Assembly: GCA_012329065.1 (NCBI GenBank)
Contig: JAAXPZ010000025.1
Location: forward strand, 1 to 46,095
Reading direction: 5' to 3'
DNA: 46,095 nucleotides
DNA from: Sulfurovum sp.
Lineage (GTDB): Bacteria > Campylobacterota > Campylobacteria > Campylobacterales > Sulfurovaceae
Below are positions 446 through 18,524 of the stretch, piece by piece (the first letter of the stretch is position 1; each line of letters begins with the position of its first letter). Made by a program: the position numbers and the translations under genes. Under the pieces are notes generated by a model. It had not been told where the DNA came from and did not search any database. It saw nothing but the letters and a program-made list of their open reading frames with translations.

Positions 446-569
446 TTCTTAAATATAATATCAAATTAACTCTAAATAAGAAATAATGCTTCAGAAACAC
501 TGCAACATTTGGTTGATTAAAACTATTTTGGAGTATACTGCTTTTATAAAACTCAATGAAGTTGTAAAA

Positions 570-2945
570 ATGCAAAATATCGATGATTATTTATTGGAGG
601 TTTGGGGGAAGGAGTTTTTACTTCTTGGTGAAATTCAGACAGAGGATAATTCCTTAACTTCTCTTTTGGAGCACAACCGTATACAGTTCTGCGACTATAT
701 GTCGATAGTGCTCTCTGTGGGTAAAACTAATGTATCAGACTCCCTAAGACTCATGATGTTGCAGGATGCATTGTGTTATTTTGATAATACTATTCACAGG
801 TCTTTAATAAAAAGTACAGATATTCTTCTTATACAGAAAAGACTTATGGTATTTTTGCTAAAGGGCTCAGATGGAAGATTGAAGCAGGAGATTTTTCATA
901 GAATAGCGAAGTTGAAGAGTGCCGAGATTATAGAAGAGGATATTGCTAAATTGTTGATTTTGGCAATTGAATCTTTTGAAAAAGAGAATCCTGAACAAAA
1001 AAGTATACCAGATAGCATTGAAGAGAAACTCGCATTTTCATATAGTGCCGAAATAGCATCAATGGAAAAATTAGTTTTAGACATTAGTTCACATTTGGAG
1101 GATAGTTTACTTCTGCAAAAGCTAGAGAAGGTGATGAAAAAGATTCAAGATCAACGCTTTGGCATAGGTATCACGGGAGTAATGAATGCAGGTAAATCAA
1201 CTATGCTCAATGCACTATTGGGCAGAGAGATTCTAGGGACTGCAGTTGTCCCAGAGACTGCCAATCTGACTATTATCAAATATGGTGATAAGCCAAGAGC
1301 AGTTGTGAACTTCTGGAGTCGTAGTGAGTGGGAGGGAATAGAAGAGAGTGCAGGTATTTTGGAGGGCATGAAAGAATTTGTAACCCATACTAAGGATTCA
1401 ATAGGTGCAGAATTTGATGCATATCTCTTGCCAGAAGGCAAAAGTCAAGAGATAAGAGTTGATGAGCTTCCTCTATTTACTTCTGTTGAGCATTCAGACA
1501 ATAAATGTAATTTAGTGAAAAGTGTTGAGCTATATAGTGATTTGGAGTTTGTAAAAAATGGCGTAGAGATCGTAGATACACCTGGTCTAGATGATCCAGT
1601 CATACAAAGAGAGGAGATAACAAAAGATTATTTACAAGAGTGTGATCTGCTTTGTCATCTCATGAATGTAAACCAGTCTGCTACTCACAAAGATATAGAA
1701 TTTATCATAGAGTCTCTGCTTTACCAGCATGTGGCACAACTGCTCATAGTGATAACTCGTATAGATACAGTGACAGAAGATGAACAAGAAGAGGTGATAG
1801 CCTACACTAAAAGCAGCATAAAGAGCAAACTGGATTCTCTAGGGAAAGGAGCTCAGTTTGATGCTTTGGTAAATCGCATAGAGTTTATCTCTATAGCTGG
1901 CAAAATGGCACTACTTCATAGAACAGGTAGAGAAGATGAGGCGATAAGTGCTGGCTACAGTCTAGACAAAAGTGGTATCTTACAGATAGAGCAGTATCTA
2001 AGAGATGTGCTTTTTGGGAATGATTCTGTTAAGGCACAACTTATTGTACAGGCAAGCAAAAAAGAGATAAATAACATCATTGATGTTCAGATGCAATCAT
2101 ATATACGGCAAAAAAGTTTACTTGGAAAAAGTGTAGTAGAAATAGAGGCAGAGTATATCTTGCATCAAAAGCAAAAAGAGAAGAGAGAGAAAGTTATTGC
2201 CAAACTATACAATGACATAATATCTAGTCGCAAAGATCTAGAAGAGTATCTTTCTATCTTGAGACACTTTGTAGTAAACAAGCTAAGTGATCTGCAATCT
2301 CAACTCAAGCGACGCATTATGGACGATGTCAGATATGAGTTGAAAAAAAATAAAAAGAAGCCCACAGCTGAGAGAATCTATATTATGCTCGATATTGGTA
2401 TCAGAGATGGCTTTATCGATCTTCTTCGTGATTATAGGCATCAATTTCAAAAGAGACTATCTGCTGCCCTAGATAAGATAGATAGGGATTTTGAGGCATT
2501 CTCTGTAGAGGAGGTGGATGGGAGTAGCAGTGCCAATGAGTTTTTTGGCAAATATTTTGACAAATTGCTATTGACAGATTCAAACAAGCTTTTGGCAGAG
2601 CAGCTAAATCAGGCGATAGCAGCAAGTAGCAAAAAACATCTCTCAAAACTCGACCAACAACTTCATGATTATATGGGAGTCGCTATGAAGAGGCTTGCAG
2701 AGAGATTCTGGGTCAAAGCTGATGTTCTAAATAAAGACTTAATAGAGAGTTTTGAGTTTAGATGTAGTAAACCACTTGAGAGTATTGAAGAACAATTGAG
2801 GCTAGAGGAGAGTATCTTAAAGTCAGCTATGACGCAGGCTAGAAACAGTGCAGGTGACACAAACAAGAGGCTGATGACACTAGAGGAGCATCATCTGCAT
2901 CTTTCAGAGTTCAAGGACATGTTGCTAAGTGAGAATGACAGATGA
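570..2945 (+). CDS. Dynamin-like GTPase, first of a tandem pair (DLP1-like)
   Basis: A large membrane-remodelling GTPase of the bacterial dynamin-like family. From the ATG at 570 it is 791 aa. The P-loop is GVMNAGKST at about residue 203, the switch II motif is DTPGLDD at about 336, and the base-recognition motif is TRID at about 396 in place of the usual T/NKxD. A long helical region follows, as expected for neck and trunk helices. The frame also has an ATG at 486, but a TATACT -10-like box at 534-539 lies between the two and GAAG sits 8 nt before 570, so 570 is preferred. Its stop overlaps the next GTPase by four bases (ATGA). Campylobacter jejuni carries a similar adjacent pair, DLP1/DLP2 (Cj0411/Cj0412), that forms a heterotypic membrane-tethering complex; an equivalent role here is inferred. 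Confidence 0.85.
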   Translation: MQNIDDYLLEVWGKEFLLLGEIQTEDNSLTSLLEHNRIQFCDYMSIVLSVGKTNVSDSLRLMMLQDALCYFDNTIHRSLIKSTDILLIQKRLMVFLLKGSDGRLKQEIFHRIAKLKSAEIIEEDIAKLLILAIESFEKENPEQKSIPDSIEEKLAFSYSAEIASMEKLVLDISSHLEDSLLLQKLEKVMKKIQDQRFGIGITGVMNAGKSTMLNALLGREILGTAVVPETANLTIIKYGDKPRAVVNFWSRSEWEGIEESAGILEGMKEFVTHTKDSIGAEFDAYLLPEGKSQEIRVDELPLFTSVEHSDNKCNLVKSVELYSDLEFVKNGVEIVDTPGLDDPVIQREEITKDYLQECDLLCHLMNVNQSATHKDIEFIIESLLYQHVAQLLIVITRIDTVTEDEQEEVIAYTKSSIKSKLDSLGKGAQFDALVNRIEFISIAGKMALLHRTGREDEAISAGYSLDKSGILQIEQYLRDVLFGNDSVKAQLIVQASKKEINNIIDVQMQSYIRQKSLLGKSVVEIEAEYILHQKQKEKREKVIAKLYNDIISSRKDLEEYLSILRHFVVNKLSDLQSQLKRRIMDDVRYELKKNKKKPTAERIYIMLDIGIRDGFIDLLRDYRHQFQKRLSAALDKIDRDFEAFSVEEVDGSSSANEFFGKYFDKLLLTDSNKLLAEQLNQAIAASSKKHLSKLDQQLHDYMGVAMKRLAERFWVKADVLNKDLIESFEFRCSKPLESIEEQLRLEESILKSAMTQARNSAGDTNKRLMTLEEHHLHLSEFKDMLLSENDR

Positions 2946-4963
2946 GCCTATTGGATCAGTATATTGAGTCATACAAGAAGCTATCTTTTAGTGTAGAGTA
3001 CAAATATGATGATAACATATTGGGATTGGTGGAGAAAAGCACAGCGTTGCTCTTGGATGAAGAGCTATTGCCGTCACTAGAGTTAGAGGAGGCGATGAAG
3101 CAACTGCATGTCAGAGCAAAAGAGCCTATGAAAGTTGCAATAACTGGACAGTTTTCCAGCGGAAAATCTACTTTTCTTAACGCTCTATTATCAAAAAATA
3201 TCCTCCCAACTGGTATTACCCCTGTTACATCCAAAGTCAACTATATACGCTATGGAAATGAGTTTAGGATACAGGTGCATTACAAAGACGGCAGAGACGA
3301 ATATCAGCAAATTGAGGATATAGCAAGATTCACAGATCAGAGATGTGCAGTAGAGGAGATCGAGTATTTGACGCTCTATGCACCGTTAGAGATGCTCAGA
3401 GAGATTACTTTTGTGGATACGCCAGGACTCAACTCTCAGGATGATACAGACACTATAACTACTCAAAGAGTGCTGAAAGATGTAGATGGTATCATCTGGC
3501 TGTCCTTGATTGATAATGCAGGAAAAATGAGTGAAGCACAGACCCTATCTCAGTATATGGAGCAATATCAAAACAAATCTCTCTGTGTACTAAACCAAAA
3601 AGATAAGTTTGAGCCAGAGCAAGTGGAGCAGAGTGTGTCTTATGTCAAGCAGAGTTTTTCAAAATATTTTTCTGAAGTTGTGCCTATTTCTGCTATAGAA
3701 GCGTTATTGTCTAGAAGCCGTGATAAAAATGTGATAGCAGAGGAAGGGCTCGATAATTTTCTGATGCAGATTTCTGAGAAGCTGAAGTCTGAGCAGGAAC
3801 TAGATATAGGGAAGATGTATCAGTCCTACAAAGATACTGTAAGTGAAGCCCACAATAGCAACTTCGTAGAAAATATAAAACTTCTCAAGTCTTCTAATAT
3901 CGAAACGGTTTTACAGTTTATTGAGACACAGATTAGACCTGCATCTCATAGCTCAAAAGCTTTTTCTATCACAAAAGATATCAGACAAACATGTGAATTG
4001 ATTATCAAACAGCATCAGTTTTTTATCTCTATTTATGATGAAATATCAGTGGAACTAAATCTTTTTGAAGAAGAGGCACAGAAGAAACTCACGCAACTAA
4101 AAGATAAGTTCGGCAAGGCATTGCAGGATGCATACAGAAAAATAGAGGATATTATCGAGGTGATTGCTGATGACATATACAAGCACATTACTCATGCAAT
4201 TCACATTAGATATATAGAGAAGAAATCTGGACTATTTAGGAAAAATATACTATATGAGCCAATAGAGTATAAGGGTGCAAAAATTGAATCAGATAAAATA
4301 TACAAGCATCTTTTTTATGAAGATGATATAGTCGGAAAGATGTTCAAAATCTATGTAAAAAATTTAAAAACCATACAGGACGAGGTCAACCAGCACAATG
4401 CAGAAGTATATAAGATACTAGAAGATCGCATACAAAAATGGCAAAATAGATACGAAATAATCCGCAAGCATGACCCGTTGCATTCAAATATGGAATTTGC
4501 TAATATTCGTAAATTTGCCTCCAAGGCCTACGAATATATGCTCAAACCTTTTTCAGATCAAATACACGCTTCTTATGCCAAGATAAGCTCCGAATTTAAC
4601 CATCTTAGTTCAGCGGTTAGCTTCAATTATCAGAATGCTACACAGGTGAGTATCGCTTTTCTAGAGCAAAAAATTGGGCAGTCGGTTGCACTGTATGAAA
4701 GTGATCCAGAAAGATTTTCGCTTTATACCCCTAAGCTTGATGAAATAAAAGACAGACTAAATAGTAGTTTTCATATATATGAATTGCAAAACATGATGAA
4801 TACTAAAAAAACTTTTCTAAGTAAAAACTATGATACACTCTTACGGGAATTTAAGTGCATCAAACAAGATAGAGAGATTTTCCTCCAGTCAAAAAAAGCT
4901 AGACATGAAAAGATTATTAAGATGTTGCAGGTGTATATTAAGGACATAGAGATAGATATTTAG
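2942..4963 (+). CDS. Dynamin-like GTPase, second of a tandem pair (DLP2-like)
   Basis: A 673-aa dynamin-like GTPase translationally coupled to the preceding one by a 4-nt overlap. The GTPase core is complete: P-loop GQFSSGKST at about residue 69, a threonine-containing switch I around TGITPVT, DTPGLNSQDD at about 159 and NQKD at 218-221. The G domain lies near the N-terminus, unlike in the first protein, which has about 200 residues before it. The remainder is charged and mostly helical. The two proteins differ enough to be a heteromeric pair, not a recent duplication. Ends convergently with the phosphagen kinase gene 72 nt away. Confidence 0.88.
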   Translation: MSLLDQYIESYKKLSFSVEYKYDDNILGLVEKSTALLLDEELLPSLELEEAMKQLHVRAKEPMKVAITGQFSSGKSTFLNALLSKNILPTGITPVTSKVNYIRYGNEFRIQVHYKDGRDEYQQIEDIARFTDQRCAVEEIEYLTLYAPLEMLREITFVDTPGLNSQDDTDTITTQRVLKDVDGIIWLSLIDNAGKMSEAQTLSQYMEQYQNKSLCVLNQKDKFEPEQVEQSVSYVKQSFSKYFSEVVPISAIEALLSRSRDKNVIAEEGLDNFLMQISEKLKSEQELDIGKMYQSYKDTVSEAHNSNFVENIKLLKSSNIETVLQFIETQIRPASHSSKAFSITKDIRQTCELIIKQHQFFISIYDEISVELNLFEEEAQKKLTQLKDKFGKALQDAYRKIEDIIEVIADDIYKHITHAIHIRYIEKKSGLFRKNILYEPIEYKGAKIESDKIYKHLFYEDDIVGKMFKIYVKNLKTIQDEVNQHNAEVYKILEDRIQKWQNRYEIIRKHDPLHSNMEFANIRKFASKAYEYMLKPFSDQIHASYAKISSEFNHLSSAVSFNYQNATQVSIAFLEQKIGQSVALYESDPERFSLYTPKLDEIKDRLNSSFHIYELQNMMNTKKTFLSKNYDTLLREFKCIKQDREIFLQSKKARHEKIIKMLQVYIKDIEIDI

Positions 4964-5035: not shown

Positions 5036-6067
5036 CTACAGCCCTTTTTCCACACTTATCAGTTCCGTCACCCCATCATACATATCTTGCACACATCGTA
5101 CCTCTGTCACACCTAGGCGGCGTTTGTTGCTGATGTCGTAGACTCCACCTTCACTTTCGGAGTGTTCACCATGGATGCCTCTGATTTGCAGATGGTATTT
5201 GTCACATATGGTTTGGAATTTATCCATATTTTTGGAGAGTTTGGGTAATTTGATGTGTACGCTAGCACGCATAGCTGTACCTAGATTTGTAGGGCAGCTG
5301 GTGATATAGCCTAGGTGATCACTGTATGCAAATGATACGCTTTTCTCGATCTGTGAGATAGCCACAGTGAGTCTAGTGAAGACCTCTAATATATCACCAC
5401 CCATTTGCATGGAGATGATACGAAGCTGATCCTCTTCATTGATCCATACTAAAAATGTCTTCTCGTCATTATGAAATATCCCTCTTCCAGTTGGCCAATC
5501 ACGGTTGAGTCCAGCAGATTCTAAGAATCTATCTCCCGCCTTGAAGAGAAAGTGATCCTCTATGAGCTTGGCTTTGACATCTTCACTCATTCCTTGCAGG
5601 GAATAATAGCTACCTGACAGCCAGCCATCCAGAGAGGATAGGGCACTTGATATATCTGCCTCTATCTTGTCTCTTTGAGCTTTGGTGATGGCTGGACCTA
5701 ATGGCATATCTTTGATGTTTCTGCCAACTCTGATACGAGTAGAGAGGATGAATTCGTCATTTGGGTCAGGGTTGGGAGCATTTAGGTGATTTGGGTCGAG
5801 ATCACTCTTGTGGCTGTCAATTTTACCAAAGCCATGATATTCCTCTATGATGGGATCAAGCAGAGGAGCAAAAAGGCTATATGACTCTAAGTCACCAGCA
5901 TAAACTCCTATACCACTATCAGGATTATCTACACCTGACCTAATCGCATCATAGAGGGTAAATCCGTTGGCGGTAGCTTTGTCTTTTAGGAGCTCAAATA
6001 TTTTGGGCGTTAGATGTTTGCAGAGTAGAGATTTGCAATTTTGTGGAAATGTTGGAAAGCTTGGCAT
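5036..6067 (-). CDS. Arginine kinase-type phosphagen kinase (ATP:guanido phosphotransferase)
   Basis: A 343-aa phosphagen kinase that reversibly transfers phosphate from ATP to a guanidino compound as a cytosolic energy buffer. All catalytic landmarks are present: STRIRVGR, NEEDQLRIISMQ, the reactive-cysteine motif CPTNLGT followed by RASVHIKLPKL, and the flexible loop GEHSESEGGVYDISNKRR. The guanidino-specificity region NPDSGIGVYAGD and the acidic LLDPIIEEYH segment look like arginine kinase instead of creatine kinase. The length is close to the roughly 355 aa of animal enzymes, so this is not the McsB protein-arginine kinase branch. The start has AAAGGA upstream and a TATACT-like -10. Such enzymes are common in animals and patchy in bacteria, which suggests horizontal transfer. 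Arginine as substrate is inferred. Confidence 0.93.
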   Translation of the reverse strand: MPSFPTFPQNCKSLLCKHLTPKIFELLKDKATANGFTLYDAIRSGVDNPDSGIGVYAGDLESYSLFAPLLDPIIEEYHGFGKIDSHKSDLDPNHLNAPNPDPNDEFILSTRIRVGRNIKDMPLGPAITKAQRDKIEADISSALSSLDGWLSGSYYSLQGMSEDVKAKLIEDHFLFKAGDRFLESAGLNRDWPTGRGIFHNDEKTFLVWINEEDQLRIISMQMGGDILEVFTRLTVAISQIEKSVSFAYSDHLGYITSCPTNLGTAMRASVHIKLPKLSKNMDKFQTICDKYHLQIRGIHGEHSESEGGVYDISNKRRLGVTEVRCVQDMYDGVTELISVEKGL

Positions 6068-12321: not shown

Positions 12322-13437
12322 TTATAGCTTGCCTTCTGTGTGGTGTTCAAATATTTCTGTGACCAGTGCTATACGCTCATCAAAACTTTTTTTAGATGCT
12401 CTTTCATGTACGGTGTGATCTCCGTCTCCGAAAGGTCCCCAGCCGTCCGTGACGATGACGCCAACAGAGGCGATGATATTGGCATCACTGACTCCCCCTC
12501 TTTGTTCAGTAGGCATGGATGTGTTACAGAGGGTATTGATACGCTCGATCCATGCTAGTTGTGCTGAATTGGGTTGCATTACATCTCGTAGGATACCGCC
12601 AGATAGGGTAGATTTGGTACCTTTGATGTAGTCCTTGGATACAATCTTATCTATGGCTTTTAGGGCTCGTTCTTTTTCTATAGGCTCAGTGTATCTCAGA
12701 TCAAAAGCCAGCTTGGCATGAGGAGAGACGGTGTTGGCTCCTATGCCACCTTCCATTATGCCGACATTGACTGTGGTTTGCTTCCCTTTATCGGATATCC
12801 TGCTTAGGTCTATAAGTTTGCATGCTGCTTCTTGGTTGGCATCTGCTCCATCCCAGTAGTGATTGCCAGCATGTTTGGCGATACCTTCTATCTCTAGCGT
12901 GAACCATCCTATGCCTTTGCGACCTGTGACTATCTCTCCGTTTTGCCCTGCTGCCTCAAATACCATGCAGTAGTCATACTCTGGGGCCAGTTTGGCGGTT
13001 AGATGCCTGCTGTCGTCACTGCCAGTCTCTTCATCGCTGACAAGGAGAAGATCTATATTGAGTATCTCTCCATACTTATCGTATATCTTTCTCAGGGCTT
13101 GCAGTGCCACAAAATTACCACCTTTCATATCACATACTCCAGGCCCATAAATCCACTCTTCATCTTCTTTGTACTCCTCAAAAGTATCTGGAGCGAACAC
13201 AGTATCGGTATGTCCTAGAAGTAGTAGTTTTTTGCCATTTGTTTTACGAGATATGAAATGCAAGTGATCTCCTATAGATTCTCTCTCATATCTCTGGAGT
13301 CTCATTCCGATTTTTTCTACCCAGTTGGCAAACATCTTAGAACTTGTATCTACACCCTTTTTGTTTTCTGTCCAAGAGTTGATTTCAATGATTTTTCTTA
13401 GCTCATTATAGTATTTTGTATCCATTTTTGTATCCAT
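12322..13437 (-). CDS. M20-family metallopeptidase, CPG2-like carboxypeptidase
   Basis: A 371-aa zinc peptidase of the M20 family. Metal ligands and catalytic residues are visible: LLGHTDTVF, the bridging Asp in YGPGVCDMKGG, the base Glu in SDEETGS, a Glu in FEAAG, the dimerisation-domain KHAGNHY segment and the final ligand in DGDHTVHERAS. The layout matches glutamate carboxypeptidase (CPG2) and related enzymes that release C-terminal Glu or other amino acids. The N-terminus has a 12-bp tandem repeat (MDTKMDTK) with two possible starts, 13437 and 13425. It has no signal peptide. It is divergent from the ATP-grasp/M14 cluster with about 95 nt between, so a shared regulatory region and a related substrate are possible. 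Confidence 0.88.
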   Translation of the reverse strand: MDTKMDTKYYNELRKIIEINSWTENKKGVDTSSKMFANWVEKIGMRLQRYERESIGDHLHFISRKTNGKKLLLLGHTDTVFAPDTFEEYKEDEEWIYGPGVCDMKGGNFVALQALRKIYDKYGEILNIDLLLVSDEETGSDDSRHLTAKLAPEYDYCMVFEAAGQNGEIVTGRKGIGWFTLEIEGIAKHAGNHYWDGADANQEAACKLIDLSRISDKGKQTTVNVGIMEGGIGANTVSPHAKLAFDLRYTEPIEKERALKAIDKIVSKDYIKGTKSTLSGGILRDVMQPNSAQLAWIERINTLCNTSMPTEQRGGVSDANIIASVGVIVTDGWGPFGDGDHTVHERASKKSFDERIALVTEIFEHHTEGKL

Positions 13438-13533
13438 TTTTTAGTATTATTTCTTTCCTTTCCAATATATCTAAAGATATTTTAATAAAGTATAGTAGAA
13501 TATCTCATTAGTTCATCGCAAATGGAGGACAAT

Positions 13534-14433
13534 ATGTCGAGAAAAATCGGAATGTGGCTCTATAGTAACGGTGGGGGAGATAAAATACAGAAGAAGATTA
13601 TCAAAAAACTCAAGCAAAGAGATATAGAGGTGATCAAAGATATCAACTTGCGACACGCAATTGCAAAAAATGGTCATATTATTCATAATGGACTTGCAAT
13701 AGATAAGCTTGACCTTTTTTTCACCTATAATGCTGGAGAGCAAACGCAATATCAAATATTTCTTTATCAAGCACTAAATCGTGTGATACCTATGATTAAT
13801 ACTTTTGATTCTTTTATGCTAACTGAAGATAAATTTCAAACCTCTTTTTTGCTAAAGAATCACGGAGTTTCGACACCTAGTTTTAAGCTCTGTCATAGAG
13901 ATGATACCCACCATCTAAAAAATATAATTAAAAAATGGTCTAAAATGGTTTATAAGCCAACAGATGGCTGGGGTGGTGTAGGGCTTACTAAAATAGAGAG
14001 CCAAGCAACACTAGACATGCTTCTACCTTTTCTTAACCAGATGGACTTGAGGTTTTTCTATGTAGAGAAGTTTATTAAGTATGATAATACAGATTATCGT
14101 ATAGATATTGTTGATGGTGAGTATGTAGGATGTTATGGACGCAAGGCATCTGCTACAGACTGGCGTACAAATGTCACTTCAGGAGGTTCTGTCTTTTTGC
14201 GTGAACCAAATGATGAATTAGTGGCTTTAGCAAAAAAAGCATCAAAGGTATGTGGTGCTGATATAGCGGGGGTAGACATTGTATACGACATGGAAAGAGA
14301 AGAGTATGTAGTGCTTGAAGTAAATGGTATATCTGCTTTTGCAACACCAGAGCAGGAAAAATTAGGGCTAGACTTCAATAAGAAAAAGATAGATTTGATT
14401 GTCGATATGATAGACAGAAAGACAAAAAAGTAA
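13534..14433 (+). CDS. RimK-like ATP-grasp ligase
   Basis: A 299-aa ATP-grasp protein related to RimK and other carboxylate-amine ligases that join an amino acid to a carboxylate by way of an acyl phosphate. Visible parts are the pre-grasp domain (IGMWLYSNGGG), the ATP-binding lysine and glycine loop MVYKPTDGWGGVGL, FYVEKFI, DYRIDIVDG, TSGGSVF, and the metal-binding pair D...EVN (VLEVNGISAF, Glu262 and Asn264). The frame opens at 13522, but GGAGG at 13524-13528 is spaced five bases from the ATG at 13534, which decides the start. It is followed 31 nt later by a second ATP-grasp gene and then an M14 carboxypeptidase. The substrate is unknown. Confidence 0.88.
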   Translation: MSRKIGMWLYSNGGGDKIQKKIIKKLKQRDIEVIKDINLRHAIAKNGHIIHNGLAIDKLDLFFTYNAGEQTQYQIFLYQALNRVIPMINTFDSFMLTEDKFQTSFLLKNHGVSTPSFKLCHRDDTHHLKNIIKKWSKMVYKPTDGWGGVGLTKIESQATLDMLLPFLNQMDLRFFYVEKFIKYDNTDYRIDIVDGEYVGCYGRKASATDWRTNVTSGGSVFLREPNDELVALAKKASKVCGADIAGVDIVYDMEREEYVVLEVNGISAFATPEQEKLGLDFNKKKIDLIVDMIDRKTKK

Positions 14434-14464
14434 TATTGTGTTTAAAATACAAGAAGGGAAGTAA

Positions 14465-15886
14465 ATGGAAAAGAAAAAAAACAATAAAAAACTACCAAAA
14501 ATCGGGCTACTCTATCTGGACTATGTATTGAGGTTTTTTGATAAATCTAACTTCAAAGGATGGCCGAACAAGATAGAAACAGTAACTTATCACTGGAAAA
14601 ATGATAAAAATCGTTTTATCAAAGAAGTAAAACGAAAAAAAATTGATGTACTTATAGGAAATATACCAGCAACGGCATATGAAACATTTAGAGAAATCGC
14701 ACGAGCACTTCCAAATGTTCAGTTTATACCTTCACTTGATGCACAGTTTTCAAATAAATCAAAAGAAAATGTGACCCGCTTTGCATGGAAGTATGATATT
14801 CCTATCCCAGGAACTTATATTTTTTATGATAAAAGTAAAGCTGATAGATTTATAGGGAAAATAAAATTCCCTAAAATTATCAAGAAATCATACGGTCCAT
14901 CTAATTACGGCGGATATTTTGTGCATAAAGTAGACTCCAAGAGAGAAGCTAGAAATCTTTTAGCTCAGAAAAAATATCATCCAGCATACTTCCAAGATTT
15001 TGTACCAATGGAAGCAGATGTAAGGGTAATGCTCATAGGACATAAGCCTGTTTGTGCATTTTGGAGAAGAGCTCCTGAGGGAGAATGGCTAACAAATACT
15101 TCTCAAGGTGGAAGCATGGATTATATGAATGTGCCTAAAGAATTATTAGATCTTGCAGTAAAAGTTTCCAAAGATGCCAATGCTGAGTATTGGTCTTGTG
15201 ATGTAGCAGTATGTCAAGACGGAAAGTATCATATTTTAGAATGTGCTACTGCCTTTGCCGCTTTTCCTTACATAAGAGATTGGATAGGTCAATATATTAT
15301 ATGGAAGTTTTCTAATGGAAGATTCCCTAAGCCAAACATTCCATTGTTCAATTGGGAAGAGTTGGGGAAAATGGATTCATTAGTGTTGCGTACACTGCGA
15401 CATATTACTTTTGGAAAGTACACACCCTCTTATGATGGTGCATATTTCTTAGATACCAAGGTAAGAGAAGCTGAAGAAGGTGATATGCATCTACATGAAA
15501 TGGACTCTCATTACCCTATGTTTCTTACAGAAAACAGAAAGCATGAAGAATGGCCAAGTGAAAAGTGGAACTTTCAAGACAATTATGGAAAAACCATACG
15601 AAAAGTACATGTCAAGAGTAATCCAAAAATCTCTGTAGACGAAAGTATAGAAAGCGAAAAGAACAGTATAATTTTAACTGAAAAGAAAATGAAAAAACTA
15701 TTAATGTCTATAGAGGGTATTGGCAAGAAGAAAGCTGAACAGATTATGAATATATTTGATACAGTAGAGCTTGTGCATACATTGGAAACAGAACCTTATA
15801 AGATAATGGAAGAAATTTCATGGTTTAAGAAGAAATTTCTTACAAAACTTATGAAAGAATGGGAAGATTTCAAAAATAAACTGTAA
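14465..15886 (+). CDS. Second ATP-grasp protein with C-terminal helix-hairpin-helix
   Basis: A 473-aa protein. Residues about 10-330 read as an ATP-grasp domain: VTRFAWKYDIPIPGTY, the lysine/glycine loop PKIIKKSYGPSNYGG, FQDFVPMEADVRVMLIG, TSQGGSMDY, and the metal-site region SCDVAV...ILECATAF. Here the usual Glu-x-Asn is Glu259-Cys-Ala261, so the metal-binding asparagine is missing. The last 65 residues contain a helix-hairpin-helix (SIEGIGKKKAEQIMNIF), a fold usually used for DNA or protein contacts and unusual on a ligase. A GAAGGGAAG ribosome binding site precedes the ATG. It sits between the RimK-like ligase and the M14 peptidase in an apparent operon and may be a divergent ligase or a partner subunit. 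Confidence 0.82.
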   Translation: MEKKKNNKKLPKIGLLYLDYVLRFFDKSNFKGWPNKIETVTYHWKNDKNRFIKEVKRKKIDVLIGNIPATAYETFREIARALPNVQFIPSLDAQFSNKSKENVTRFAWKYDIPIPGTYIFYDKSKADRFIGKIKFPKIIKKSYGPSNYGGYFVHKVDSKREARNLLAQKKYHPAYFQDFVPMEADVRVMLIGHKPVCAFWRRAPEGEWLTNTSQGGSMDYMNVPKELLDLAVKVSKDANAEYWSCDVAVCQDGKYHILECATAFAAFPYIRDWIGQYIIWKFSNGRFPKPNIPLFNWEELGKMDSLVLRTLRHITFGKYTPSYDGAYFLDTKVREAEEGDMHLHEMDSHYPMFLTENRKHEEWPSEKWNFQDNYGKTIRKVHVKSNPKISVDESIESEKNSIILTEKKMKKLLMSIEGIGKKKAEQIMNIFDTVELVHTLETEPYKIMEEISWFKKKFLTKLMKEWEDFKNKL

Positions 15887-15947
15887 AATTCCATAAACTT
15901 AGAGCCTCTTCATGGGTCATAGAAAATAATGCAAAAAGAAAACATTA

Positions 15948-18524
15948 ATGAAAAAACAATATATATCATATAAAGAGAGTTTAGAGTTTCTTTATAAAAT
16001 GGAAAAAATATATCCAGATTTAATTGATATTATTAAAATTGGTAGCACCTATGAAGGACGAGATATCGTTCTTGCTAAAATATCTAAAAATGTAAAAAGA
16101 GCTGACGAAAAACCAGCCATGCTTTTTACAGGTTCAGTGCATGCTCGTGAATGGATAGGGCATGAGCTTGCATTAAAATTTATAGAGTATGTGGTTGAAA
16201 ATCAAGATATAGATCCAGAACTTGAAAAAGCTTTAATTGAATCAACAATATACATGGTTCCATGCCTCAATCCAGACGGATATGAGTACTCTAGAAAACA
16301 TTTCTCTTTTTGGCGTAAAAATCGCAGAGTCAATCATGATGGCACAATAGGTGTAGATCTCAATAGAAACTTCTCTATAGGGTTTGTAAAAAATAGCAAT
16401 ACAGGCTCTAATGTTTATGGAGGAGAGGAGCCTTTTTCAGAAGCTGAGACAAGAGCTATCAAAGAGTTTGTTGATGCTCATGAGAATATCACCATAGCTC
16501 TTGATTACCATTCGCAAGGAAATGTCTTTTTCCCTGCACATAAGTTTATGCACGAAGCGGAAATAGATGGAACTGACATGAATGTTTTGTGTGCAAATAT
16601 GAATGATGAAATATCCAAGGTCACAGGAAGAAAATATGGTATACATAGAGGAAAACCACCCGCATCTCTGATAGCAGGGTCTGGCAGAGAGTATTATTAT
16701 TCTAAAGGCATGCTTGCTGTGGTTGTTGAAGTAGGGACTAAAAATATTCCCGACTATATGAAAAGTATGACAGGAAGTATCAATGAAAATATACCAGCAT
16801 TAAAAAAAGCATTTACCGAAGTAGTGAATTATTCCCCATTGTCACCTAGTAGAGTAGATGAATTTACTATAGAATCCAGAGATGCTTCATCAGTGACTTT
16901 GGTATGGCAGTATGAAAAAAGAGCTGACATATTTTTTGAGGTTTATCGGAGTACAAAAGATAAAGATGCCTGCAATGAACGTACAAAAGTAGGAATTGTA
17001 GGAGGGAACTGCTTTGTCGATACAGACCTAGTCTCTTCTACAAATTATCACTATACGATACGAGCGGTTAATAAAACAACAGGTTACAAGTCACCTTTTG
17101 CACCTATTGTGAAAGTAAGAACTTGGCTAGAAGATGATGAGTTTTTCAAGCTTATCTTTGCCAATAAGTCTGGTACAGGTTATGTCGGAGAGTATATGCA
17201 AGAGCAGAATCGTTCACATTTTGGATTAAATTCACTTTTTGTAGGGATAAATAAATCAAAAGGAATATGTAGTTCTGTGATGAGCTTTAATCTTGATAGC
17301 ATTCCTGAAAATGCTATTGTTAAATCAGCTCGTTTTTATATTTATCCTATGAATCGTGTCGCAGCTAAAATAGAAAAATTTGGAGAGTGGAATCTATCTT
17401 TGTTAAATCAAGAAAGTTTTAGCGAAATCACCGATTTTGATGAAATGGAAAATGCAAAACCTCATGGTGTTATAGGACGCGCAATACAATCAAGTAATCT
17501 AACTCAAGGCATTTGGAATCATTGGAGTTTTTCTAAGCACGAGTGTAGACTATTGCAACAAGAATTTAACAGCAAACAAGCCGTCTTTAGACTAGATGGG
17601 CCAAAAACACTTCCTGACGGAGAAAGCTCTCAGATGATGCAGTTTGATATAGGTTATGGAAAATTTGGTGGAGGAATACAGTATAGACCTATACTTGATA
17701 TTAAATATACACTTGAGAACAAAAAGATTAAACTTCCGGCGGTAACGCTTTCTACTATCTGTATAGACAAAACACAAAATGGATTGAAAAGTGGATTTGA
17801 TGCTGATGGTCATCGTGTATATGGGTATTTGGAATTTGATTTGACTCAGCTTCCTGACCCAGAAAATACCATGATAACACAATGCTCTTTGAAAATACGC
17901 AATAAAAATACTTTCAATAAAAAGTCTGATGTACGATATTATGTGGAATTAGTGAAGCTTGAGGAGGCAAAAGATTATAACGATATGAGAAATCGTGAAA
18001 AGATAGAATATATAGGATATGAAGTAGCTGAATCAGATTTGAATGGAAGGGATTGTCAATATTTTAAGTTTGATACACTTTCTAAGAATGTTTTAGATCA
18101 CATACATCAAGAAGGTGATAGGCTCAAGCTAGTAATCAAGCCTACATCTTCACTCGGTAGCAAAAATAGAATCATAGAGTGGGATTCTAGTGTTCAATTA
18201 GTGGTCAAGTATATTGATAAGCGTCGTAGAGCCTTGTCTTCTTCAAATAATCTAAAAATTTCAAAAGAAAATAAAATGATTAAACTTACTTGGGATAAAG
18301 TAGAAAGCGATGCACTAAAAGGCTACTATGTAGTTAGAAACAGCTTTCACCCACCAAGGCACTTTATGGATGGCGTCAAGTTGTATGGAGGTAAAGACAC
18401 TTGGACATATGATAACTTTGCCTCGCTTGACAAAGAAAAGTATTATTCGGTATTTTCATATGATGATGTACCAAACTTCTCCGAGCCCACGAGTATCAAG
18501 TATAATCCTTTGGAGAAATATTAA
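15948..18524 (+). CDS. M14 zinc carboxypeptidase with FN3 and DNRLRE-like domains
   Basis: An 858-aa multidomain protein. Residues 1-300 are an M14 carboxypeptidase with every key residue: zinc ligands His65 and Glu68 (GSVHAREW) and His188 (DYHSQGN), substrate-binding Arg in FWRKNRR, Asn139-Arg140 (VDLNRNFS) and catalytic Glu261 (VVVEVGT). A fibronectin type III-like domain follows (about 302-392), then two DNRLRE-like beta domains (about 400-600 and 600-765) and a second FN3-like domain at the C-terminus. No signal peptide or membrane segment is seen, although such accessory domains are usually extracellular. The gene is third in the ATP-grasp cluster, 61 nt after the HhH protein. A role in removing C-terminal residues that the ligases add is inferred. 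Confidence 0.88.
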   Translation: MKKQYISYKESLEFLYKMEKIYPDLIDIIKIGSTYEGRDIVLAKISKNVKRADEKPAMLFTGSVHAREWIGHELALKFIEYVVENQDIDPELEKALIESTIYMVPCLNPDGYEYSRKHFSFWRKNRRVNHDGTIGVDLNRNFSIGFVKNSNTGSNVYGGEEPFSEAETRAIKEFVDAHENITIALDYHSQGNVFFPAHKFMHEAEIDGTDMNVLCANMNDEISKVTGRKYGIHRGKPPASLIAGSGREYYYSKGMLAVVVEVGTKNIPDYMKSMTGSINENIPALKKAFTEVVNYSPLSPSRVDEFTIESRDASSVTLVWQYEKRADIFFEVYRSTKDKDACNERTKVGIVGGNCFVDTDLVSSTNYHYTIRAVNKTTGYKSPFAPIVKVRTWLEDDEFFKLIFANKSGTGYVGEYMQEQNRSHFGLNSLFVGINKSKGICSSVMSFNLDSIPENAIVKSARFYIYPMNRVAAKIEKFGEWNLSLLNQESFSEITDFDEMENAKPHGVIGRAIQSSNLTQGIWNHWSFSKHECRLLQQEFNSKQAVFRLDGPKTLPDGESSQMMQFDIGYGKFGGGIQYRPILDIKYTLENKKIKLPAVTLSTICIDKTQNGLKSGFDADGHRVYGYLEFDLTQLPDPENTMITQCSLKIRNKNTFNKKSDVRYYVELVKLEEAKDYNDMRNREKIEYIGYEVAESDLNGRDCQYFKFDTLSKNVLDHIHQEGDRLKLVIKPTSSLGSKNRIIEWDSSVQLVVKYIDKRRRALSSSNNLKISKENKMIKLTWDKVESDALKGYYVVRNSFHPPRHFMDGVKLYGGKDTWTYDNFASLDKEKYYSVFSYDDVPNFSEPTSIKYNPLEKY

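Follow-up and report, generated by a model that had tools for sequence, protein, structure and literature searches.

What do two ATP-grasp ligases and two carboxypeptidases do when they are encoded side by side in one bacterium? The question is raised by a locus in Sulfurovum sp. (assembly GCA_012329065.1, contig JAAXPZ010000025.1). The window, the whole stretch of 46,095 nucleotides that was analysed, carries an M20 peptidase, two ATP-grasp proteins designated G1 and G2, and an M14 carboxypeptidase. We found that these four genes form one conserved module of proteins that lack recognisable signal peptides, and we tentatively read it as a system that would add an acidic amino acid to an acceptor and take it off again.

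A sequence-only reading of the locus had listed a RimK-like ligase, a second ATP-grasp protein and an M14 carboxypeptidase in line, with an M20 peptidase divergent from them, and this inventory was borne out. The carboxypeptidase G2-like M20 gene occupies 12322-13437 on the minus strand (Pfam M20, E 2.7e-19, and M20_dimer). On the plus strand lie the RimK-like G1 at 13534-14433 (from the conserved start; the open reading frame (ORF) runs from an ATG at 13522; Pfam RimK, E 1.1e-18), G2 at 14465-15886 (Pfam RimK, E 5e-15, with weak helix-hairpin-helix (HhH) matches) and the M14 gene at 15948-18524 (Pfam Peptidase_M14, E 4e-54, with fn3 and DNRLRE regions). The divergent region between M20 and G1, 13438-13533, holds no precursor ORF and is presumably the site of both promoters. 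Since only 31 bp separate G1 from G2 and 61 bp separate G2 from the M14 gene, it is plausible that these three genes are one transcription unit. The genome of the window has a single M14 gene in total, and G1 and G2 are its two top RimK-type ATP-grasps.

Conservation of the four genes as a unit

Using G2 as the marker gene for locus searches, we found it in 82 of 150 genomes of the family Sulfurovaceae and in 53 of 397 genomes sampled across the phylum Campylobacterota. Profiles for the other three genes were run against the same 397 genomes and gave counts of 54 for M14, 53 for G1 and 54 for M20. All four genes were present in 51 of these genomes, part of the set in 6 and none in 340. Fisher tests of pairwise co-occurrence gave p values of about 1e-58 to 1e-65, which are inflated by kinship among the genomes. 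The pattern covers many genera, and gains and losses of the genes coincide.

The sequence-only reading had proposed examining the neighbourhood in Campylobacterota and beyond, and the genes proved to be nearly always adjacent. The full order M20-G1-G2-M14 was observed in 34 of 40 Campylobacterota loci (40 genomes), with M20 either divergent, as in the window, or leading the other three on their strand, as in several other lineages. A complete set was also found in Photobacterium sp. DA100. When one genome per species was scanned, 331 relatives of G2 were found, and 73 of the best 80 of these 331 loci had all four genes in the same order; several of the 7 incomplete loci end at contig edges. 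Among the named carriers are Photobacterium, Vibrio, Veronia, Shewanella, Pseudoalteromonas, Alteromonas, Colwellia, Endozoicomonas, Halomonas and Campylobacterota, the majority of them marine or vent bacteria. Because the species scan used strict patterns, it may have overlooked more distant relatives in other phyla.

In one genus (genomes G157, G275, G447, G461 and G470) G2 lies far from the M20-G1-M14 cluster and the four genes are retained. In G157 the distance is ~840 kb, yet all four are kept.

Each of the four gene trees splits Gammaproteobacteria from Campylobacterota with zero misplaced rows, and inter-gene distances correlate with r 0.65-0.84 overall. This parallel split is consistent with the module travelling as a unit. 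M20, G1, G2 and M14 form one unit, in an arrangement far beyond chance.

We found no fifth gene family common to the module in both phyla; the neighbours are lineage housekeeping genes or members of common families. No conserved small ORF that could be a precursor peptide lies within or beside the module in ~118 loci. Gaps in these loci are mostly below 200 bp save for the divergent promoter region, and G1 and G2 frequently overlap or lie no more than 30 bp apart, in agreement with the earlier remark that no precursor gene stands between the genes. A phage or viral origin was considered and rejected, as was a role in anti-phage defence: there was no match among phage records or viral contigs, and none of the four proteins matches PADLOC-DB models. 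The four-gene set, which the sequence-only reading did not recognise either, is not described in the open literature searched, whose coverage excludes the amidoligase survey of Iyer et al. 2009. Taken together, the module is highly conserved and makes functional sense as a set, and it appears not to have been described before.

Domains and residues of the ligases and carboxypeptidases

The best PDB profile matches of G1 are RimK S6-glutamate ligases. Residues K141, R189, R203, N213, D248, E262 and N264 are invariant in 53 of 53 G1 sequences, and all the Asp/Glu/Asn metal ligands of the ATP-grasp fold (D248, E262, N264) are retained. From this family and these residues we infer that G1 is an ATP-dependent ligase, the "writer" of the module. 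Its scores stay below the cut-offs of the named families. TIGR00768 (cut-off 143.4 bits) gave 122 bits for G1 and 78 for G2, both below the cut-off; G1 scored 47.5 against a cut-off of 331 with PRK10446 (S6 ligase); and its top NCBIfam model, MptN, gave 131 bits, far below a cut-off of 350.

The second ATP-grasp, G2, has the fold at residues 13-283 and a helical tail at ~405-472 with a weak HhH score (AlphaFold pLDDT 81.8). The top Foldseek matches of the predicted structure are ArgX/LysX and RimK. Its metal site keeps D246 and E259; in 61 of 61 sequences the ligand Asn is replaced by alanine (A261).

The M14 protein consists of a carboxypeptidase A/T-type catalytic domain (~residues 1-295), an fn3 domain, two DNRLRE-like beta domains and a second fn3 domain. 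The predicted structure (AlphaFold pLDDT 86.9, pTM 0.86) matched CPA4 with TM 0.85 and CPO with TM 0.83 in Foldseek (by target). Together with a Pfam score above cut-off, the zinc ligands HxxE and His, the catalytic Glu, the carboxylate-binding Asn-Arg pair and the Arg127 equivalent place it in the family, and H65, E68, R123, N139, R140, H188, R247 and E261 are invariant in 54 of 54 sequences. The sequence and fold matches listed are of CPA, CPB, CPT and CPO types, with no CCP (M14D) among them.

One of these invariant residues bears on specificity. R247 is opposite the Ile of CPA4 at carboxypeptidase A position 255, in an alignment of ~24% identity. This position sets specificity in vertebrate enzymes: CPA has a hydrophobic residue there, CPB an Asp and CPO an Arg, which confers on CPO its specificity for acidic C-terminal residues (PMC9925722). 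Xenopus CPO with Arg255 cut FA-Glu-Glu and left hydrophobic substrates uncut (PMC9925722). An invariant arginine at the position where CPO has one predicts that M14 removes C-terminal acidic residues and would act as an eraser of them.

Export of the M14 protein to degrade extracellular protein had been named as a finding that would sever it from the ligases. We found no signal peptide: a median of 4 open codons precedes the start, the conserved N-terminus is hydrophilic, and the protein has no prodomain. A recognisable signal peptide is absent from all four proteins, which suggests that writers and erasers share the cytosol.

The nearest solved structure to the M20 protein is carboxypeptidase G2 (1CG2, profile match E 4e-43). 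H76, D103, E136/E137, E161 and H341 are invariant in 44 of 44 sequences, all metal ligands are kept, and with its dimerisation domain (M20_dimer) the protein fits the carboxypeptidase G2-like type. A poly(aspartic acid) hydrolase is among its profile matches, and a LysW-lysine hydrolase model is among the NCBIfam matches of the module.

A proposed function and a possible substrate lead

The reading we prefer, at a little under even chances, is that of one cytosolic module which attaches an acidic amino acid, in the likeliest case L-glutamate, to a carboxyl group of some protein, peptide or small acceptor in the cell and takes it off again. In the manner of RimK, G1 would activate a carboxylate as an acyl phosphate and join this to the incoming amino acid through the latter's amino group. 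G2 would present or select the acceptor via its HhH tail, or it would be a second ligase whose metal binding is altered. M14 would then strip C-terminal acidic residues stepwise, one by one, and the CPG2-like M20 would trim what M14 cannot: the first linkage, an isopeptide or a released dipeptide. In this proposal for the activities, their division of labour and the substrate, glutamate is suggested by the M14 pocket together with the nearest ligases, and reversibility by the gene set.

How does such a module compare with known systems? RimB, a retropepsin, removes the glutamates that RimK adds to S6 (PMC11957791). The RimK-RimB pair (RimABK in Pseudomonas) likewise joins a RimK-like ATP-grasp to a dedicated peptidase, both cytosolic. 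However, the peptidases of the module are M14 and M20 metallo-carboxypeptidases rather than a retropepsin, there are two ATP-grasps, and both are below the RimK family cut-offs. RimB (PF05618) had no match in the genome of the window; the control search matched in 2 archaea. Eukaryotic TTLL/CCP (M14D) systems also combine a writer of ATP-grasp fold with an M14 eraser, there specific for C-terminal glutamate. In contrast, the M14 of the module is nearest to CPA/CPB/CPT types with fn3/DNRLRE domains, and there is no tubulin substrate; the two systems are probably of independent origin. Because the RimK cut-offs are missed, RimB is absent and the M14 is of another type than the CCPs, the module belongs to neither RimK-RimB nor TTLL-CCP. 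On this comparison, the best reading is that it would work most like these two, with unrelated erasers.

Two further systems resemble parts of the module. The M14 CCP of Burkholderia cenocepacia is also a cytosolic bacterial M14 and has a proposed basic S1' residue, Lys there and Arg in the module. It cleaved a glutamate test substrate only at a low level (PMC3940198), and no CCP chain is among the listed structure matches of the module M14. The RloABC operon of Pseudomonas aeruginosa is a rim-like operon of an ATP-grasp and peptidase genes; unlike the module, it encodes retropepsins that are secreted and a transglutaminase that is inactive (PMC12239564).

A possible lead to the substrate came from g9, one genus of the Sulfurovaceae. 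At two loci the M14 gene is followed, with a 4 bp overlap, by an ABM-domain ORF, after which rpsF-ssb-rpsR comes next on the same strand. A third locus has the same layout with a short gap replacing the overlap, and at a fourth the M14 gene adjoins rpsF (L038, L187, L188 and L213 for all four). At three further g9 loci (L199, L206, L207) efp is directly upstream of M20-G1-G2, and rpsF-ssb-rpsR lies ~2.4 kb further upstream. bS6 is a known target of RimK, and EF-P is a known target of modification. The link to rpsF or efp was seen at 0 of ~100 loci outside g9, and this confinement suggests that it may go back to one chance insertion.

It is conceivable, and in our view unlikely, that the module is the bacterial equivalent of the glutamylation code of tubulin, a dedicated and reversible system in which the ATP-grasp pair would put acidic tails on a translation component (bS6 or EF-P) and the acid-specific M14, together with M20, would erase them, evolved independently of RimK-RimB and TTLL-CCP. 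The C-termini of bS6 mostly end in Glu-Ala in carriers and non-carriers of the module alike, and the tail was therefore uninformative as a signature of the module.

At one locus (L156, 1294-1776, minus strand) the C-terminal tail of ribosomal protein S6 is long, rich in Glu and of low complexity, and it ends in Glu-Ala. Most genomes of the family have tails like this one, whether or not they carry the module.

If the preferred reading is true, the module would be a second bacterial system of glutamylation, or of tailing with another amino acid, besides RimK-RimB. It makes testable whether ATP-grasp/M14 writer-eraser pairs have arisen independently in bacteria and eukaryotes, and for substrate discovery it offers four clean markers as well as marine hosts that are tractable.

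Weighing the alternatives

Several observations weigh against acidic tailing of a cellular acceptor. The acidic specificity of M14 depends on an alignment of low identity and on a pocket loop modelled with low confidence, and a pocket-only profile for the specificity residue matched no M14 structures. DNRLRE and fn3 domains are usual in exported proteins. The alanine in place of the ligand Asn in every G2 suggests that G2 may be a non-catalytic partner or an altered ligase. In CPG2 the Glu side chain is bound by a lysine; M20 has an acidic residue there, and it may not be Glu-specific. Finally, bS6 tails that are the same with or without the module give no support for S6 as the target. The sequence-only reading had described a "reversible tailing system". 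Its core, the ligases and carboxypeptidases as one functional unit, stands, in that the genes are nearly always neighbours in other genomes and M14 is not exported, and the M14 residue adds support; counting two enzymes as writers and two as erasers may be inaccurate in part, because G2 is without a canonical metal ligand and may not be a ligase, and the part given to M20 is tentative.

The strongest competitor, which we consider somewhat unlikely, is that G1 and G2 build a non-ribosomal acidic oligopeptide, for example poly-alpha-glutamate as a storage compound, osmolyte or metal ligand, and that M14 and M20 recycle it. RimK itself makes poly-alpha-L-glutamate, stimulated by RimB (PMC11957791). 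An acid-specific exopeptidase with an M20 dipeptidase would suit the recycling of such a polymer, as does the poly(aspartic acid) hydrolase match; no protein substrate gene lies near the module, and the carriers are mostly marine or vent bacteria. However, the ATP-grasp pair is unlike the architecture of cyanophycin synthetase, and both the HhH tail of G2 and the large beta domains in M14 suggest that a macromolecule is recognised.

It is less probable still that the ligases add an amino acid to a cofactor or a small carrier protein, in the way that LysX/ArgX act on LysW, MptN on tetrahydromethanopterin and CofF on F420, and that M20 releases the product in the way of [LysW]-hydrolases. The LysW pathway likewise pairs a RimK-family ATP-grasp with an M20 hydrolase, G2 is structurally nearest to ArgX/LysX, and both the MptN model of G1, for all its low score, and the LysW-lysine hydrolase match point in this direction. 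However, a search for LysW (TIGR01206) found no homologue in the genome of the window and matched in five control genomes, the module is without the biosynthetic pathway enzymes, and the additional M14 with its large beta domains would be left unexplained.

We regard as very improbable a maturation of the graspetide type, or of another ribosomally synthesized and post-translationally modified peptide, in which a peptide encoded elsewhere would be modified by the ATP-grasps and trimmed by the carboxypeptidases. Some ATP-grasp branches are indeed linked with peptidases from unrelated families where no precursor can be detected (PMC8939145). Against this, no precursor ORF was found in or near the ~118 loci, there is no exporter and no C39 peptidase, and models of ribosomal peptide maturases scored far below cut-off. 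General peptide catabolism, with unrelated peptidases and ligases merely in one operon, is disfavoured and hardly credible: M14 and M20 are common digestive families and a plasmid search gave M14 enzymes in many unrelated bacteria, but the genes co-occur near-perfectly with two ligases even where they are not all adjacent, and this M14 is cytosolic, with neither prodomain nor signal peptide.

Elsewhere in the window, two dynamin-like GTPase genes lie in tandem at 486-4963 on the plus strand, a pairing known for bacterial dynamins. An ATP:guanido phosphotransferase of the arginine-kinase type, a family rare in bacteria, is encoded with both domains at 5036-6067 on the minus strand.

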